Shown one piece after another: positions 11,001 through 60,500 of a DNA stretch of 64,000 bases. The first letter of the stretch is position 1, and the number at the start of each line of letters is the position of its first letter. The notes under the pieces are model-generated. The model saw only the letters and a program-made list of their open reading frames with translations, was not told the DNA's origin and searched no databases. The position numbers were made by a program, and so were the translations under genes. This DNA is from Watersipora subatra (lineage: Eukaryota > Bryozoa > Gymnolaemata > Cheilostomatida > Watersiporidae), in NCBI RefSeq assembly GCF_963576615.1, contig NC_088712.1:30037870-30101869 (forward strand). Direction: 5' to 3'.

Positions 11001-14000
11001 TGTGTTAAGCCAAGACAACAGGGGCAAAGCTTCAAAGAAACAAGAATAAGCACATTGTGTAAAGACTGCGGTGTAGGCCTCTGCAAGGGTGAATGCTTCT
11101 GAAAGTACTATAGCTAGAAAAACAGTTATATGAAACAACTAGCTGTGCTATCCGGTGTTGCTCGGGTATTAAAAATCAGCTTATAAACAATGAGAGATGC
11201 TTGCCACTTGCTACTAGCCTGGCAAGTGTTTTACGAGTGGCATTTTGAACAAAAGCACTTGTTGCATTTGTGCAAAATGCCACTCGTAAAAATTTTGCTG
11301 TGCTAAAAAATTCTTCTGACGCTAATATGGGCTAGTTCAGCAGTGCAGAAAAAGAGTCGAGGTCAGAAAACATTGTGAAAGGTATTGAGCCCCCAGAAGA
11401 TATGCGCTCCATTGAAAGCAACAATTAGAACTTCACTGGCCGAGCAAGTGATGTGAATATTTTTGTTTTCGACTGTAATATAAGTATAGCTCATTTATGT
11501 CACTTGCTAATAAATATATGTTTATAGCATTTGATAAATTATTGTTATATACCTTGTAAATTTACCAATTTATAGCATATTATTTGATAGCATCATTGCG
11601 GTAATCTGATCTTACAGTGGATCGACGTTCGTAGCTCCTCTTCTATTGCACATAAAACACTAGTTATTGGTGCAAACTGTAACAAACATGTCAATGAGTG
11701 CAATGAGCTTTTATGCAGCATTGTTAAGTATAGATATAAAATTAAAATATGGCTTCCAATTTAGAATGAAATAAAACTTGAAAGCTCCAACGAATTGCAA
11801 AGCAGGACACAGGCCTTGATATCATTGCAGTTTAATTGCAAGCAATAGATATCAACTGGTAGATATATTTCTCAGCTTCTCAATGCATATTCATTAAGAG
11901 GTCTTTGACAAGTTGAAGGTAAGTTAGCAGATTTATTGCATCCAAAAAGGTTAATGTCCACCGGAAAAAAAGTATTTAAATATAGGCAACATTTGCTTCG
12001 TCCGTAATAGGACTAAATTTATCTTCTGAACATTCTGGCGAGCCATCTGAAAAATACACCGCCAACCTTTATTTGGCCGCCACTATAGAGGAAGGGTTGA
12101 AAAATAGAGCGACATGGCGTTCAATTAGAGGTTTTACGGTATATCTAAACTTGTGTTTTTATTGGAGACTGCTTCTTGTCATCATGTCTTATATAAGCAT
12201 TGGTATGCACAAGTATGCCTGAATTGACATTTTCAGAAGGCTGTATTCCCAACATAATTACCTCCTGCGTGTTTGGAAACTCTGTGGATAAGACAAACCC
12301 AGTTAAAGAGCTCCCGACATCTGTACCGAAAGTGGAGAGGACATTTGTACAAAATGCTGGATTACTAACATTTTGCTTCATTGGCCTTCAGGTGAGTAAA
12401 CTGGGAGACGGATGGCTGAGCATGACTCACGCATTTCAGGGGAAAGTTATACAAAGTTTCCATACAGTGATAGTCTAGCAACACCTGGGTCCACCAGTGC
12501 CGAAGCGCTACGCTGGGTTGACAAGCAAATCGTGTTTCATAGGGAGCTACAGTAGAGCTATGGTTGTGTGATGCCTTATATCAAGGCATATGTATGCAAA
12601 GGACGCAGCGGGAAAGCAAAACCTATGAACACGCACAAAGGTGACAGTTTTGATTTGATAAGGCAGCATGATTTGGTGCGTCTGCTTATCTATAACATCA
12701 TAAAAGTTATAAAAGTCCTTCATGTCATTTATTAGTTGATGCGAGCGATAGAGATAAGGTAGAGTGTGATGTGTAGTCCAGACAGCGCAGCGCTATCACA
12801 TGTTAGTACCATAAATTCCGGCGTGCAAGTCAACCCGGCCTACAAGTTGAGGTCTAAGGTTTGGTTTAAAAATCCAGGTTTTGACATGTACATGCTGTCT
12901 CATATTCTACTCTGTCACCCTAGTTGACCTCTGTATCACCTTAGTTTACCTCTGTATCACCCTAGTTCACCACTGTATCACCCTAGTTCACCTCTGTATT
13001 ACCCTAGTTCACCACTGGATCACCCTAGTTCACCTCTGTATTACCCTAGTTCACCTCTGTATTACCCTAGTTTACCACTGGATCACCCTAGTTCACCACT
13101 GTATCACCTTAGTTCACCTCTGTATTACCCTAGTTCACCTCTGTATCACCCTAGTTCACCACTGGATCACCAAGGTTCACCACTGTATCACCTTAGTTGA
13201 CCTCTGTATTACCCTAGTTCACCTCTGTATTACCCTAGTTCACCACTGGATCACCCTAGTTCACCTCTGTATTACCCTAGTTCACCACTGGATCACCCTA
13301 GTTCACCTCTGTATTACCCTAGTTCACCTCTGTATTACCCTAGTTCACCACTGGATCACCCTAGTTCACCACTGTATCACCCTAGTTCACCTCTGTATCA
13401 CCTTAGTTCACCGCTGTATCACCCTAGTTCACCGCTGTATCACCCTAGTTCACCACTGTATCACCCTAGTTCACCACTGTATCACTCTAGTTCACCACTG
13501 TATCACCCTAGTTCACCACTGTATCACCCTAGTTCACCACTGTATCACCCTAGTTCACCACTGTATCACTCTAGTTCACCACTGTATCATCGTAGTTCAC
13601 CACTGTATCACCCTAGTTCACCACTGTATCATCCTAATTCACCACTGTATCACCCTAGTTCACCTCTGTATCACCCTAGTTCACCACTGTATCACCCTAG
13701 TTCACCACTGTATCACCCTAGTTCACCACTGTATCACCCTAGCTCACCTCTGTATCACCCTAGTTCACCACTGTATCACCCTAGTTCACCACTGTATCAC
13801 CTTAGTTCACCGCTGTATCATAGAACAGTTTGTTCAGTGTTTTGAGTAAAGATTTACTAGAAAGTCAATAATCGTTGTGGTGTTAGCGAATCCATACAAA
13901 AAAACAGCTCTTTGTTTCTTATAAGCATATAAGTTTCCTTGGAGATGAGATGGTATTTGGCATTGTTGTAGGTGTCATATCTAACATGGGGACTATTGCA

Positions 14001-31240: not shown

Positions 31241-31755
31241 TAACCTATCTAAGATAATTACTAGGACTACTAAATATAACATTCTACATACAAGTGAAAC
31301 CTATTGATTATTACCACTGATGTTCCTTCGACAAAGAGGGAACCAACTAGTGTATGTAACAATAGTGATTATAGTTGCTACGACAACTGCATTAAAAATG
31401 AATAATTGAAGTGGTGAACAGGATAAAAATGTGCTCATCATCTGTAATGCCAAAGAATGTTCATTAGCAAGAATCAATGGTTATTTTTAGTTGTAGTAAT
31501 GAACAGGTGACAGCTCAGCAAAGGAAGTCCTATAGAGGTTTATAAGAGATCAGTGGGGTGTGTAAGAGATCATTGCAGGATATGTAAGATCATTAGAGTA
31601 GAGTACAGACTTACCTCTCGTGTGGTTGTCAAGCAGTCTACCTGTAAGTACACATATGTGGAACCTCAGTTATATCAACATAGAAACTAAGGGTAATGAT
31701 TTAACAGCGTATCCAAACTTACTACCAATGTTGATACGGTTGATACCTATATTCC

Positions 31756-32590
31756 TACTATCAGGATAAAGTGCTGTGAGACAGGATATGAAAGGTTGAT
31801 AACTATATTCCTACTGAATATCAGGATAAAGTGCTGTGAGACAGGATATGAAAGGTTGATAACTACAACCCTACTAAATATCAGGAAAAAGTGCTGTGAG
31901 ATAGGATATGAAATGCTGATAACTATATTCCTACTAAATATCAGGATAAAGTGCTGTGAGACAGGATATGAAAGGTTGATAACTATATTCCTACGAAATA
32001 TCAGGATAAAGTGCTGTGAGACAAGATATGAAAGGTTGATAACTATATTCCTACTAAATATCAGGATATAGTGCTGTGAGACAGGATATGAAAGGTTGAT
32101 AACTATATTCCTACTAAATATCAGGATAAAGGGCTGTGAGACAGGATATGAAAGGTTGATAACTATATTCCTACTGAATATCAGGATAAAGTGCTGTGAG
32201 ACAGGATATGAAAAGTTGATAACTATATTCCTACTAAATATCAGGATAAAATGCTGTGAGACAGGATATGAAAGGTTGATAACCAAATTCCTACTAAATA
32301 TCAGGATAAAGTGCTGTAAAACAGAATATGAGAGGTTGATAACTATATTCCTACTAAATATCAGGATGAAGTGCTGTGAGACAGGATATGAAAGGTTGAT
32401 AACTATATTCCTACTAAATATCAGGATAAAGTGCTGTGAGACAGGATATGAAAGGTTGATAACTATATTCCTACTAAATATCAGGATAAAGTGCTGTGAG
32501 ACAGGATATGAAAGGTTGATAACCATATTCCTACTAAATATCAGGATAAAGTGCTGTAAAACAGAATATGAGAGGTTGATAACTACAACC
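31756..32590. repeat. 60-bp minisatellite, about 14 units
   Basis: The unit is AACTATATTCCTACTAAATA, TCAGGATAAAGTGCTGTGAG, ACAGGATATGAAAGGTTGAT. Period is exactly 60, so long frames are open on both strands (259 codons minus, 168 plus). The variant GTAAAACAGAATATGAGAGG occurs in two units 240 bp apart (32281 and 32521), marking a four-unit block duplication. Confidence 0.98.
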
Positions 32591-37781: not shown

Positions 37782-38213
37782 CATTAGACACCAGAGTACA
37801 ATGAGGAGTGATCAAACGTGCTAGCTGGATTCGTTATAAACTATCACTCTGGCAGCATATCAGATCTCTGATTCAGATTCCAATCTCCGATCATCATATC
37901 TATTCTGCCACTCACCTTTGTTACAGAGTTCTCCTGTCCACCCAAAGCAGCAGTGGTTAACTGTTTCTTCTACCCCATCCTGTGCATCAGTTGATTCAAC
38001 ACTGGAGCAAAAACACACAAGTTTTGTTATACAATAAATTAGTTGCTTGTTGCTTACAAGATTACTGTCAGCTTGCACGATGGGCTTGCTTAAACTTATT
38101 GTCATTTTTGACTTTCAGTTGTCACATTATTCTAATTGTGCTAAAGGGCATGGTACTACGGGATTGCTTTATAGAACACAACTTCACCCCTTCTGACCTC
38201 ATCCACGTGATCA

Positions 38214-40322
38214 AATCACAGTTCTGAGACCATATATACCATATGATAAACATATTACAGTTCTGAGACCATATATACTATATGATAAACATATCACAGT
38301 TCTGAGACCATATATACTGCATGATAAACATGTCACAGTTCTGAGACCATATATACTACATGATAAACATATCACAGTGCTGAAACCATATATACTGCAT
38401 GATAAACATGTCACAGTTCTGAGACCATATATACTACATGATAAACATATCGCAGTTCTGAAACCATATATACTACATGATAAACATATCACAGTTCTGA
38501 GACCATATATATTACATGATAAACATATCACAGTTCTGAGACCATATATACTACATGATAAACATATCACAGTTCTGAAACCATATATATTACATGATAA
38601 ACATATTACAGTTCTGAGACCATATATATTACATGATAAACATACCACAGTTCTGAGACCATATATACTACATGATAAACATATCACAGTTCTGAAACCA
38701 TATATACTATATGATAAACATATCACAGTTCTGAGACCATATATACTACATGATAAACATATTACAGGTCTGAGACCATATATATTACATGATAAACATA
38801 TCACAGTTCTGAGACCATATATACTACATGATAAACATATCACAGTTCTGAGACCATATATACTGCATGATAAACATGTCACAGTTCTGAGACCATATAT
38901 ACTACATGATAAACATATTACAGTTCTGAGACCATATATACTGCATGATAAACATGTCACAGTTCTGAGACCATATATACTACATGATAAACATATCACA
39001 GTGCTGAAACCATATATACTGCATGATAAACATGTCACAGTTCTGAGACCATATATATTACATGATAAACATAACATACCACAGTTCTGAGACCATATAT
39101 ACTACATGATAAACATATCACAGTTCTGAGACCATATATATTACATGATAAACATATCACAGTTCTGAGACCATATATACTACATGATAAACATATCACA
39201 GTTCTGAGACCATATATATTACATGATAAACATATCACAGTTCTGAGACCATATATACTACATGATAAACATACCACAGTTCTGAGACCATATATACTAC
39301 ATGATAAACATATTACAGTTCTGAGACCATATATACTGCATGATAAACATATTACAGTTCTGAGACCATATATACTACATGATAAACATATCACAGTTCT
39401 GAGACCATATATACTACATGATGAACATATCACAGTTCTGAGACCATATATACTACATGATAAACATATCACAGTTCTGAGACCATATATACTATATGAT
39501 AAACATATCACAGTTCTGAGACCATATATATTACATGATAAACATATCACAGTTCTGAGACCATATATATTACATGATAAACATATCACAGTTCTGAAAC
39601 CATATATACTACATGATGAACATATCACAGTTCTGAGACCATATATACTACATGATAAACATATCACAGTTCTGAGACCATATATACTATATGATAAACA
39701 TATCACAGTTCTGAGACCATATATATTACATGATAAACATATCACAGTTCTGAGACCATATATATTACATGATAAACATATCACAGTTCTGAGACCATAT
39801 ATACTACATGATGAACATATCACAGTTCTGAAACCATATATACTATATGATAAACATATCACAGTTCTGAGACCATATATACTACATGATAAACATATCA
39901 CAGTTCTGAGACCATATATACTGCATGATAAACATATCACAGTTCTGAGACCATATATACTACATGATGAACATATCACAGTTCTGAGACCATATATACT
40001 ACATGATGAACATATCACAGTTCTGAGACCATATATACTACATGATGAACATATCACAGTTCTGAGACCATATATATTACATGATAAACATATTACAGTT
40101 CTGAGACCATATATATTACATGATGAACATATCACAGTTCTGAGACCATATATACTACATGATAAACATATCACAGTTCTGAGACCATATATATTACATG
40201 ATAAACATATCACAGTTCTGAGACCATATATACTACATGATAAACATATCACAGTTCTGAGACCATATATATTACATGATGAACATATCACAGTTCTGAG
40301 ACCATATATACTACATGATAAA
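38214..40322. repeat. 39-bp minisatellite, about 54 units
   Basis: The unit is CACAGTTCTGAGACCATATA, then TACTACATGATAAACATAT. Period 39 leaves frames open on both strands (288 and 467 codons minus, 237 codons plus). These repeat a 13-residue motif and are not genes. One irregular junction (AACATAACATACC at 39067-39080) shifts the frame. It is unrelated in sequence to the 39-bp array of intron 5. Confidence 0.98.
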
Positions 40323-40885
40323 TTACTACATAATAAGGCGAGCAAGGCTGGAAACATACGAGTCACAGAAGTGGCTAGTTGGTCGGACGAAGACGAGAAG
40401 ATGACTGAAAGTGAGTAGAAATAGCAACAAGGCTTCACATCCTTTCATCTGTAATGTACATATATTGCATTTATAAAATACACAGAATCAGCAACAATAT
40501 GTATTACAGTCAATCGATGCTCTTATTGATGTTTCATATCCTTTTTTATTAATTTTGATAACAACACATTTTGCTCTTAGCTAAACCAGAACAGAACTTG
40601 ATGATTGAAGTTACGTCAACACCAACTAGAGATTTGCCTCCCTCGATCTGTTCTTAGTGCAACAGAGATAGGCTAACAACTACGCACGTTAGTTCCTGAA
40701 TACTAATATCTTTCATTTTGGCATATGTAGCAAAGTATTATTTGGCTGTTGTACGAATTACGCAAAACAAAAGTGGGAGATTTTGCAAATATTGTCTTGC
40801 AATATATAAATTAATTTCGATGAAAGCAAATATTCAACTAAAACTAAACTTTTAAGCTATAAGAATACCGAAATACATATATTAT
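40323..40885. other. Gene-free stretch
   Basis: No gene or element is recognised. Confidence 0.5.
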
Positions 40886-49004: not shown

Positions 49005-49375
49005 TCAAAGACCACTAATAGATACAGTTTCACATGTCTTACAGAAATCGACCTTCTCTTCTTTTAATTGATGGTTTTCTGTTCCAAAAAGATAACAGGC
49101 CAGTGCATAAGTTTTGTTGAGTGTTGCTGCATCTATGTTGTTGTTTATTTCTATGACCATAAACACAGCAACTAAAATGCAGGAGAGATCGGCTGAAACA
49201 TACCACAAGATAGCCCCTTCATAAGATACAACGGCATTAAAACAATCACTACACAATTTGATGTATTTTTGACACAGAGAATTTTGTGGTCTACCAGCTA
49301 ATGGAGTTTCAATATCAGCATTGATTGAACTAATAAAACAAATACATAGCATCAAAATATGAATATTATAAATTA
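49005..49375 (-). other. Unassigned coding-like segment with a second copy at 60188-60440
   Basis: A 116-codon minus-strand frame contains INADIETPLAGRPQNSLCQ, then CSDCFNAVVSYEG and YLFGTENHQLKEEKVDF. A diverged copy on the plus strand at 60188-60440 preserves INADIETPLA and CNDCFNVIVSYE at protein level but has stops. Upstream of the frame the minus strand reads TTTGTTTTATTAG, a good splice acceptor that is lost in the second copy. I do not recognise the family. It is either an exon of an unidentified gene or, more likely, part of a dispersed element. A further minus-strand frame without ATG spans about 49430-49640. Confidence 0.4.
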
Positions 49376-54500: not shown

Positions 54501-57500
54501 TCTAACACATGTCACCTCTCTAACACTTGTCACCTCTCTAATAACTGTCACCTCTCTAACACTTGTCACCTCTCTAACACCTGTCACCTCTCTAACACCT
54601 GTCACCTCTCTAACACCTGTCACTTCTCTAACACCTGTCACTTCTCTAACACCTGTCACCTCTCTAGCACTTGTCACCTTTCTAACGGCTTAAGGTGACA
54701 AAAGAAACTTTGTGTCTGTTTTACATGCAAAACACACCTGATAAACTGGTACAAAAATGATTGTGGTAGCTTGAAAGAAAGTGAATAAGTTCTGTAAAAC
54801 TGAAGAGAGTTTATCCAGCAACTTTCTTGTAGAAAGGCGACAACTTTACAAGAACTTCACTAGGCCTACATATTTGTAGTAATTTTAGAATGATCTATAT
54901 ATATATATATATATATCTGTGTTTGTCATTCGTGTGTCCAGGCATAACAATAAAGTTTTAGGAACGAAAAATCCGCTTCGCATTGGATTTTTACTCAAAA
55001 CCTCTAGTTCTGCAAACAGGCGGCTATCCATTATACTACGTGTCCAACTGGCAACACTAATGAATAACCGTGCACATATTACATGCTTAAAATGCTTGCG
55101 AAAATAATAATGGTTACTACTGGTACGCTGAAGATCATGACACGTAACGAAACGATTACAAGCTGGCTTCATGGCTCTTATTATAGGAATGACTTAGACA
55201 AGCTTAAGTTACCAACTTAAGTTACTCAAATTCATTGAGTAACTATTTTATAATTTGTGCAACGCCGGGTATTCAACTAGTATTCACTATAATATGAGCC
55301 ATGTTGGTCCGTCTGTTGGTCCGTCTGTCCAGAGCCACTCTAAGAGCGCTTTAGGAAGGAAGATTGCCCTGGATCTTACCTGGATAGCCAGTTTCCCAGC
55401 CAAGCACTCTACCACTGCGCCTCTCGACCATATTGCTGTGTAGAAGAATAATTGAGCACGTATTTATTACGTGTGACTTTCTTTCCCGACGCATGGACTA
55501 CCAGCGTCTGGATGTTAGGAAGAATTGATGTTACAACTGACTTTTTGATCTGTAAAATGGGTAGTAAATAAGTAACTCCATAAATATGAGGCATTGAGAA
55601 CGTATAATAGAGAAAATTGAATAATTTGTTTAAAGAAAGGCTCATGATAACAAGTTTATGTGATTAAGGAATGTTTGTATTTAAGTAGTGATGAAGCTGG
55701 CTGACTCTAGAGTGTTGCAGTGATGTAGTAATAGATGGTGTAACAAAATGAATTCCTTACAATGTATACGGTGCAGTCAGATATTATGCAACCACTTCAA
55801 ATTGTAGGAGACGTTTGCTGGTAGTGATGATTTACTGCCTTAAGTTTCCTAGAAACCACTACAAACCATGTACCTTTAGAGACAGAATTTTCTAACGATT
55901 AATATGGAATGAGTTTCCAATAAGCAGCAATTGGCAATTAATTTTGCTCAATAAAAATGTGTATACAACTAACTTTGACATAAAACCGAAAGATAACCTA
56001 GTTATTTGCTTATTGTATTCTCATCTCAACTAATTATTTTGTGACATTATTGCAACATAGTTTAAACAACTCTTAATAATTTGCGGCCCTGAAAAGGGCC
56101 ACAAATTGGGGGGTGTGTAAAGTGGCTAAATACTGTTAATATTTAGTATATATTGCACTAATTCTATCACATCTGCTGAAATGCTTTTACTTCATCAGCT
56201 CGAACAAGAAAAACATTTTGCATCTAAAGGATGGTTCACCTTATCGCCGTATCTCGGCATCGATACCACAATAGTTCATCGGTGATAACAATGTTCACAT
56301 TATCACAAACTAATTTTTTGCGAAGAAACCTCTTAATCAAATACTAGTCCCGCAGCAACTATCATAAGCAAAAAAAAGGATCACAGTGTTCGACAGCGTG
56401 AATTACCATCACTAAAATGGTGCACATTGTACAGGCTGTCATTGATGTTTGGCGAACTATTAGAAAAGTTTGACAGCTGCAAACTTTCCCGACGTATTCG
56501 TGCGGCTCCGGCGATGCCATCGGTTTATGCTGCAGATAGTTGACGATGAACGCCAAAAGGACAAAGCCGATATACGCCGATATAGTGTGAACCAGCCTTT
56601 TTATGGTGCGCAATATGTGGTACAGAGTAGATGAACATGGCTTTAGAAAGACTGCCATGATGAACAAAGACGTAAATTATTGGGTAGCCTCCTTATTTGT
56701 GATAGCGCTGTAGAACTAAAGGTATCAAGTTTCATAAGGAAACGCTCTAATTAATTAATTATATATATACAGTAACTAGTAGCCCGGTAGTCCTTTGTGC
56801 AGTGAGAGATTGTCATGTGTAGTAGCTATGTGCACAATTATTCCGTGCTGCAAGGGAGTCCATTGATGCAGTTGATAGTCTGCCTGGCTACTATTGAACT
56901 CGGATATCTGGCTACTAATCCAGATATCCGAGTTCAATTCCTAATTCCAATGCTTTTCTCGTAACTGATGGAGGAACACGACTCTTATTATAGTAAATAT
57001 TGTAGTGTTTTCTTATATAGATAGTATTTTATATTGATAGTAGAAGTGGTTTCTTGACTGATATGGAATATTGGACAAAGTTCTATAGAATCTTCTATGG
57101 GTATCAGTGAAAGTCTCACAACAAACCAACTTATGATGTCACCCTAGTGGATCAATGTAAAATAATCTCAATTGGTTTTCTGTTATCTTTTTCACTTTGG
57201 CTGCCAAACATCTCTCTGATATGCTCTGTATTATTGCAATCCTTATCTCTCATCATCGTTATTGTTACAGACCAAACTTGACATCGTCATAGGCAATGAA
57301 TCATGTGACCTCGATTCAGCTGTGTCAGCTCTCTCCTATGCTTTCCTCTTACAGCATCAGGTACTAATCATTCGTTGCTGTCCATTGTCTCAGTTGAAGC
57401 TTATACATTCGCTGTTACCTCTTTTAAAGACTAACTTAATATCATTAAATCGATCTTTTTGACGCAACCACATCTTTAAAGATGAACTTGCACCAAATAT

Positions 57501-60500
57501 TAATAGATTTTATCAGAAAATATCGGTATTTTTATATAATTTGTGATTGTTTTTAATGTTTGAAGTAATGTGACTACCAGAATGCTTCAAGGTTGAAATC
57601 GACAAAACTTGATCGCAGTTAACACGCTCAGATCAACCGAAAGTGCGATTCCGATGTCGATAGATGCAAAGAGACTGACAGAATAGAGACACGTAACGCT
57701 GCAACTTCAACTTAATAGCTGATATCAACTATAGCAACGATAGCATCTAGTGATGTCATTTCGGCAAGTGTTTTCCTACTGACAGCGATACCATTGGTTT
57801 ACGATGCGCATAGTCAATGAATAAGCGCCGAGAGAACAACTCCAACATACGGCGATGAGAACCAGTCTAGCTAGTAGATTTTCAAAAACATTTTATCATT
57901 ATATCAATGCGTTGAGTTGTGTGATGAAAAATTTTGCTTCCTGTTTTGCTATGCTGTGAAATCAAGTAATTTCATAGGGCGGCAATTTTTCAACGAAAAC
58001 CTAAGGTGGCCTCCTTTCTATTGGAAAGATGAAAGACTTGACTTGTGCTAGTCTTACCAGCACAAGCGTGAAATGTTCAAAGTATTTCTGACTTTCTTTT
58101 TTCAGAAAAACCCAGACCAACAGTTCATACCAGTATTAAATGTCCCTCGTCGAGACTACCCTTTGAAAACAGAAGTTGTCTTTCTCTTCACAAAGTATGG
58201 CATCAATCAATTGGACCTCATTTTCCTAGATGATATCGAGGCGCTGAGAAGAAATGGTCGTTATAATGGTGTTCATCTAGTAGACCATAATGTGACCTCA
58301 ACCAGTCTATCAGACATGGAAGCTCATGTCAAAACGATTGTAGATCATCACCATCATGATTGCCCAATCAACAACAAGTATGTTCACAGCTCTTAGTTAG
58401 TACTCATATTGTACAGACAACTTCCATTTAATGTCTGTTTGGGTCAAAGGTGTTTTATGAGAACACTAAAAGGAGACAACTTTCACCAATTTAATCCGTA
58501 GTTGTGTTTAACTTTTAAGATGTGCTTCACTGTGTTTCCATACTTGTATGGGTTTGGAGTTGTTTGCTGCTGACAAATTCGGGCCCTGCCGTCTCAACAA
58601 TTCGGACTTGCGCTATAGATCTTTTTTAGATTCCCGATATATCCCTAAAAAAACTTGTTAAAGTAGACTCTCTTTCAGGTCACGGTCACTTTATATCTTG
58701 CGTAGTCAACTAGTTTCACTAAAACAGAAATTATTTCGTCATTCTCGTCTTAGCAACCCGTCATTGGCATGTAAGCCATAGTATATATAATCTAGATAAT
58801 CCTATACGTCGTTTATCTCTCTCAAATGCGGCAAAAGAGAAAGCGATATTTTTGAGTCTAACTATGAGATTCGCGTTATTCAAATTTAATTTTAGGACTT
58901 GCATTGACTTGACACTTTACGGAATATTTTATGTAGTACCAAGCAAAAACTTCACACAAGTTCTTTACTTTATGTGGAATTTCTTGTTATAGGAGCGTCT
59001 ACAGTCTGACTGCTAAGCCCCTGCATCTAAATATCAAATGCATCACACCTTCTGTAGTTCACCAACAGAGCCTGCATTTATCACTCGCAACCATAAATCC
59101 ATAACCACATATGTTTTTGCAAGTTAATTGTGACACTGACCTTAATTGGGCGCATGTTGTACTCCAACGATTGGTGACTTTCCTCCTACAAGCCTTGATG
59201 AGTTTTTTTTCCAGGTTTTCACCAAGTTTTTTTTCCAGATTTTACTATATAGACTATATATAACATATAATAATATGATAACTAGCTATATATAACATAT
59301 AATAATATGATAACAAACTATATATAACATATAATAATATGATAACAAACTATATATAACATATAATAATATGATAACTAGCTATATATAACATATAATA
59401 ATATGATAACAAACTATATATAACATATAATAATATGATAACTAGCTATATATAACATATAATTATAATTATGTATATAATAATATGATAACTAGCTATA
59501 TATATCATATATAATTATCTCTAACTATGCCAGAATGCCTGATAGCAATTTTATTCTATTGCTCCATATTGCTGTGTTTTATACTCTTGTGTTCCTTATT
59601 GCTGTACTCTATTTTACAAGAAGTCAACAGAATTTACTACTTAGTATGCAGGTCTTACTTCAGAGGTCACATGAATGACAGTCGCTTCTAATAAGGAACT
59701 TTTTTGAAATTAGAAGATTTAAGCCTAGAAAAAGGTCATGCTGAACTCTTTTTACCTCCACGAGGGAGAGCTTACCTGAGTGTTATCGATTTGGATCCAT
59801 CAGCAGTGAGCAGTTTTTTCGAAGCTAAAGTACTTTCACAGCGAATGCTTTTGCACAAATTTAGCAAAGCGAAATGGAGTCAAATGCGTTCGGATTTTAT
59901 CGTTTCTATGATTTGGAGTGGAAGCAACTCCAAACCTATTTGATGCATGGAAACAACGGGTGACTACAGGTGACTACCTGCGGTACTACCTGCTGTATAT
60001 GTGTTACAGGGACTTTGTGAAGATAGAGATGGTTGGCTCTTGCACCTCCTTGATAACCAACCTTTTTTACGAGCGGATACGTTCAGTTGAATCTGATAAG
60101 CTTGCTCAAATGCTTAGAGGTTTGTCTTTACTCTTACGTTACTATAATAAGTTTTAAGTTTTTGTTCTAATGACATCATTTCTTTTGATTTTTAATATTC
60201 ATATTTCAATGTTTTGTATTTATGTTATTATTTCAATCAATGCTGATATTGAAACTCCATTGGCTAGTAGAGCATAAAATGCTCTGCATGAAACATCTTT
60301 CAACATGTGTAATGATTGTTTTAATGTCATTGTGTCGTATGAATGGCCGTTTTGTGCATAGACCTATTAACTATACATATTAGTATAGTTAATAGGTCTA
60401 TGATTTTGTGCAATGTTTCAGCTGATTCTAGTCACTGCTTGCCAAGATGCTTGCCGCCATATAACAGTATCAGAGTTCCTACTGATATACACCTCTACTG

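Follow-up and report, generated by a model that had tools for sequence, protein, structure and literature searches.

A hairpin in the genome of the bryozoan Watersipora subatra, probably the excision footprint of a P-superfamily transposon

This study focused on how a 46-bp palindrome, bracketed by a short direct repeat, came to lie in one of two related sequences in the genome of the bryozoan Watersipora subatra and not in the other. Both sequences fall within a 64,000-nucleotide stretch of contig NC_088712.1 (hereafter the window). The reading to which the evidence points, given a probability of about 0.92 and built on sequence comparison, is that the hairpin is the footprint left where a transposon of the P superfamily was excised.

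The hairpin and its empty paralogue

The features concerned are the following, given in window positions.

49180..49300, minus strand: diverged paralogue, in which the site is empty
60349..60356, no strand: left copy of the 8-bp target-site duplication, GTTTTGTG, with 7 of 8 bases the same as at 60403-60410
60357..60376, plus strand: left arm, the outer 20 bp of a P-element terminal inverted repeat, CATAGACCTATTAACTATAC, the same as both ends of the elements L110, L031 and L032
60377..60382, no strand: loop or junction filler, ATATTA; as a class, such loops match the arm beyond shuffles
60383..60402, minus strand: right arm, inverted, corresponding to the outer 20 bp of the opposite terminal repeat
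60403..60410, no strand: right copy of the target-site duplication, ATTTTGTG

The hairpin (60357-60402) is a perfect 20-bp inverted repeat enclosing a 6-nt loop, whose last two bases could also, judged by eye, be bases 21-22 kept from the right-hand repeat. The initial annotation was right that a real hairpin is present: when perfect hairpins were sought with arms 15 bp or longer and loops no longer than 12 nt, none appeared in five windows simulated under a Markov-1 model, against six in the real window (two-letter arms left out), two of which are in TA-rich repeats. It had read the same structure one pair shorter, with 19-bp arms and an 8-nt loop. The short direct repeat that it described as bracketing the hairpin does exist, and is better given as 8 bp (GTTTTGTG and ATTTTGTG, 7 of 8 bases identical); on the left side the hairpin already begins at the CA of TTTTGTGCA, and these two bases are outside the direct repeat. 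Its claim that the insertion is absent from a related sequence at 49.2 kb also held. The reverse complement of about 49180-49300 is identical to the hairpin locus at 185 of 263 aligned columns, poorly aligned tails included, and the pairwise score to this paralogue (49.2-49.3 kb) rose from 39 to 56 once the hairpin and one 8-mer were removed, the alignment then crossing the join.

Another hairpin in the window (56893-56938, perfect 19-bp arms, 8-nt loop) had been put forward as a possible recurrence of one and the same process. It is a singleton by DNA search and carries no P-type repeat, so that an origin by the process described below was ruled out for it. This second hairpin does look like a local template switch, since CTGGCTACT is found both ahead of it and across its loop. 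Minisatellites are plentiful in the window (for example 12881-13849, 31747-32526, 38211-40438 and 60480 onward), their units reading through as long repetitive open reading frames (ORFs).

A dispersed hairpin family with the ends of P elements

The genome searched comprised 784 Mb in 239 contigs of one assembly. BLAST with the hairpin locus gave at least 88 matches from 40 scored candidates, both strands of each palindrome being counted. The exact 20-bp arm occurred 672 times on one strand and 792 on the other (1,464 in all, some tandem arrays included; none for the backwards control). Hairpins with loops of 3-14 nt were found at 135 loci (one for the backwards-pattern control) and those with shorter loops or trimmed arms at 144 (control 0), and these two sets can overlap solely at a loop length of exactly 3 nt. 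The initial annotation had proposed replication template switching, by which an inverted duplication is made locally between short direct repeats, with the uniqueness of the arm as its check. A lone hairpin beside a short direct repeat can look so, but the arm proved to be shared, being dispersed through the genome and equal to a transposon end, and this refutes a local origin, to which practically no credence is now given.

The transposon in question was identified from the repeat itself. The window arm is the outer 20 bp of a 33-bp repeat that ends L110, L031 and L032. Element L110 (G000:C1:46288638-46292851) is 4,214 bp long, with identical 33-bp ends, CATAGACCTATTAACTATACTAGACTGGGCAAT, and an exact 8-bp duplication, ATAAAGTG. 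Its 544-aa ORF has Pfam matches to THAP, Tnp_P_element, TNP-like RNaseH_N and TNP-like GBD (GTP-binding), and a second ORF matches RNaseH_C, all above the curated cut-offs; the element also matches Drosophila P transposase 6p5a, with an E value of 3.7e-12. The same 33-bp ends are seen in elements L031 (2,780 bp) and L032 (1,694 bp), each flanked by an exact 8-bp duplication, and the inverted repeats of both extend to about 500 bp at 94% identity. Their short ORFs gave no P-family match, and it is the DNA that ties both copies to this family (family 1). At a further locus (L023) one end of the 33-bp type lies beside THAP and P-transposase frames, while at two others, the P-like locus L109 and L111, convincing ends were not found. 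A hAT element had been suspected first from the 8-bp duplication, and was dropped once a P transposase turned up inside matching ends.

A terminal inverted repeat of about 30 bp that starts with CA is typical of P elements. The source elements have such a repeat, together with the transposase domains of L110 and exact 8-bp duplications at L110, L031, L032 and L112 (a second family, below). The available text of two papers gives this form of repeat partial support as a P-type feature (PMC7776569, PMC10983969). The exact 33-bp end occurs 220 times in the genome, and the P-type RNase H domain gave at least 175 matches, from 150 scored of 342 candidates, which indicates several P families.

Duplicated targets are a property of the hairpins as a class. 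Full-arm hairpins were defined as those with at most two mismatches in both arms and with arm starts 20-80 bases apart, and the window together with 98 fetched loci (L011-L108) yielded 78. The flanking 8-mers agreed with at most two mismatches in 67 of the 78, of which 38 were exact, compared with 1.3% of 6,006 shuffled pairs. The exact flanking repeat was 8 bp long in 38 cases, 9 bp in two and 6 bp in one. The 11 hairpins without a clean 8-bp duplication include the two exact 9-bp repeats (L050, L090) and at least three loci in arrays of the terminal repeat (L025, L081, L084). Eighteen strongly trimmed candidates (pattern control 2) were tallied separately, and 10 of them had the duplication at up to two mismatches; two (L097 and L099), whose common centre is unrelated, look like another repeat. 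Among 59 good duplications, base preference was roughly palindromic, T being favoured at position 2 (35 cases) and position 3 (36), and A at position 7 (38).

Several arrangements of the repeat were seen in passing. At L087:75-182 two hairpins with unlike loops lie side by side, with TACCATAT before, between and after them, reflecting either a scar that was duplicated or two scars from two P insertions in one target. The 20-mer of the P repeat forms a tandem array with spacings that are multiples of 22 bp (G000:C1:13251273-13253228 and beyond), with at least dozens of copies among the matches listed, and triplets at 60-bp spacing (C1:10959260 and C1:11612821). Small arrays at L084:78-261 (46-bp spacing) and L081 repeat part of a hairpin and its neighbour, and can be read as scars or ends becoming minisatellites. 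By eye, the start of L074 is a tRNA-like, SINE-looking stretch, which adjoins an 82-bp scar-like insertion.

Arms, loops and the repair of a probable excision

The preferred explanation runs as follows. A P element ending in a 33-bp inverted repeat would have inserted in the window site, duplicating 8 bp, and would later have been excised by transposase, one strand being cut exactly at the element end and the other some 20-22 nt inside the repeat, with the strand polarity presumed from Drosophila. Both chromosome ends would then carry single-stranded tails, equivalent to the outer 20-22 nt of the repeat, which end joining would have reunited with slight trimming, through a short microhomology, or with pieces of the tails copied as filler. 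In the product, the two repeat tails, one inverted relative to the other, would flank the filler and be flanked in turn by the target duplications, so that it would read as a hairpin. What was found corresponds in each part: both duplications are kept (in 67 of 78 hairpins, and for 7 of 8 bases in the window), only the outer repeat is present, and the filler is copied from the tails. No locus of this one assembly came to light both with its element in place and as a scar.

Arm length was taken from 100 junctions, the first 50 of the 135 loci and the first 50 of the 144. On 145 of their 200 sides the retained repeat measured 20-22 nt (20 nt on 63 sides, and 21 and 22 nt on 41 each), with four sides longer, against an element repeat of 33 bp; these lengths assume intact outer bases, which the listings do not contain. 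The 135-locus pattern requires full inner arms, so arm length is partly imposed there, while the patterns behind the 144 loci and the 18 trimmed candidates let arms be trimmed. For the 78 fetched hairpins the retained length was 20-22 nt on 104 of 156 sides and above 22 on two; the remainder were shorter, often where a point mutation ended the match.

It could be supposed that copying from the sister chromatid began after excision and halted inside the repeat, and that the stubs were then joined, a variant of the excision model. Such events are described for Drosophila in the available text of PMC2895639, a few sides do exceed 22 nt (the 4 of 200 and 2 of 156 above), and the loop of L053, TAGACTGTTGATT, holds element bases 21-27. 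Interrupted copying would, however, stop at scattered depths, whereas the retained length drops sharply past 22 nt, and it is considered very improbable as the general route.

The loops are diverse and resemble the arms. There were 67 distinct loops among 77; all 25 of those of 9-30 nt were distinct, as were 35 of 45 of those of 1-8 nt. For 62 loops the mean longest match to the arm was 6.65, compared with 4.40 for shuffles (z 19) and 4.83 under a Markov-1 null (z 15), and it was 4.08 when the arm was read backwards. Six loop types, all of at most 8 nt, recurred at different targets, besides one shared by paralogues and one shared by tandem copies. The commonest junction, a 41-bp type, made up 6 of the 100 listed, and a 34-bp type, which is explained by annealing at TATA, made up three; a 39-bp type also recurred. 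Three segmental paralogues on C4 have one loop in common, so loops stay stable after their formation, and hypermutation of the loop after insertion was ruled out. Mismatches to the repeat were counted at 25 of 780 outer arm positions, and differences within the duplications at 37 of 1,072 sites, about 3% each, so that the scars are not ancient relative to neutral change, a comparison made without a clock.

The initial annotation had also considered a very small fold-back element with target duplication. The target duplication of 8 bp has been confirmed, but a scar from the excision of a full P element is better supported than a moving 46-bp element. A palindrome of 40-50 bp that P transposase mobilizes whole, duplicating 8 bp of target, would account for ends and target duplications that are the same as those of a P element, and for the loops that recur at different targets (the six short types, the junction making up 6 of the 100 listed, and the family 2 junction making up 17 of 44). 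Against this, family 1 loops are mostly unique, without exception at 9-30 nt, and the arms end at 20-22 nt although the element repeat is 33 bp. According to the available text of PMC1562414, deleted P copies are said to require no less than 138 bp of one end and 216 bp of the other, stretches which the hairpins do not have, and in that of PMC7776569 the 10-bp sites bound by Drosophila P transposase are internal to the 31-bp repeat. An independently mobile hairpin is thus judged unlikely.

The excision model gains from comparison with Drosophila melanogaster, in which, as far as the available parts of PMC7776569 and PMC2895639 describe it, P transposase cuts 17 bp inside the 31-bp repeat and the tabulated excision products have, between two copies of the 8-bp duplication, outer repeat on either side of a microhomology or templated insert. 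The junctions described here are alike in the duplication, in outer repeat on both sides, in short AT-rich templated filler or microhomology, and in the recurrence of some junctions. Because this layout is shared, repair by end joining of the polymerase-theta type is likely here too. The fly junctions have 17-nt tails and came from one experimental locus in a mutant unable to repair by homologous recombination (Table 1 of PMC2895639), in contrast to the 20-22 nt (family 1) and 16-18 nt (family 2) seen here across many loci in a genome that was not manipulated. Junctions of this kind are known already, and what is variant is the natural scale and the family-specific depth. Among the titles and abstract openings that searches of an open-access library listed, neither a genome-wide set of natural P excision footprints nor differing cut offsets were found.

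Other P-superfamily systems share some of these features. The zebrafish Pdre2 / THAP9 transposon has the 8-bp target duplication and ends starting CATA, but differs in a 13-bp terminal repeat with distant subterminal repeats and, in a plasmid excision test, in deletions larger than those of Drosophila P (PMC10983969, available text). The P-MITEs of Anopheles are likewise short non-coding derivatives with P ends, but keep up to about 100 bp per end, which the available text of PMC1562414 takes as needed for movement, against 20-22 in the hairpins. Galileo is reported to have long inverted repeats, as L031 and L032 do.

A second family and the proposed depth of the cut

A second P family was represented by L112, a 5,313-bp element with an exact 8-bp duplication, GGTGATAC, and 30-bp ends, CATAGATATATATACCTAGATTGGCCAATA, that differ from each other by one mismatch. 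Its ORFs matched THAP, Tnp_P_element, RNaseH_N and RNaseH_C, and its transposase segment is 49% identical to that of L110 over 264 aligned positions. An inner 20-mer of its end occurs 360 times in the genome. A pattern with at least 19 nt retained found nine places, mostly in arrays (six in one array), and a second pattern, with at least 16 nt retained, then found 44 hairpins (control 0). Duplications of 8 bp with at most two mismatches flanked 15 of 20 fetched hairpins (12 exact), versus 7 of 380 control pairs. Assuming intact outer bases, the retained length in the 44 hairpins was 18 nt on 63 of 88 sides, 16 on 22 and longer on three.

The junctions of this family are less varied, with 15 distinct among the 44 and one seen 17 times. 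This low diversity is the strongest datum for the mobile palindrome and the main datum against a scar. Repeated junctions fit favoured repair outcomes, but they fit mobile hairpins as well, and the AT-rich, self-similar tails of family 2 may favour one repair outcome.

In both families the arms end just before a shared inner motif, GACTGGGCAAT from base 23 in family 1 and GATTGGCCAAT from base 19 in family 2, which suggests that related P transposases cut at different offsets. Provided that the cut is where the arms end, its offset tracks the inner motif and lies about 4 nt apart between related transposases of one genome. For family 1, a cut at either 20 or 22 nt fits the side counts, since AT-rich filler can mimic a retained TA. 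The ends of L012:274-1499 are alike for about 22 bp and then diverge, which fits a 22-nt cut. Apart from the roughly 22 bp of P repeat that it carries at either end, this sequence has a different 1.2-kb interior; it lies between ACGTTAGG and ACGTTAGA, and could be either a DNA-capturing junction or a non-autonomous element.

We lean, if only slightly, towards the wider view that this genome is a natural archive of P excision repair, in which two related families cut at about 20-22 and 16-18 nt, and the second-strand cut is measured from an inner contact motif and not from the element tip. If this is true, the 17 nt of Drosophila would be one value of a variable spacing. P excision junctions have been a classic laboratory window on end joining, mostly at single engineered fly loci, and some hundreds of natural junctions from one repeat would make germ-line end joining readable statistically in a non-model organism, and the origin of the long, unusual stagger of P transposase becomes testable from sequence. 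Scars of this kind may at present be labelled by annotation pipelines as tiny MITEs or unexplained palindromes.
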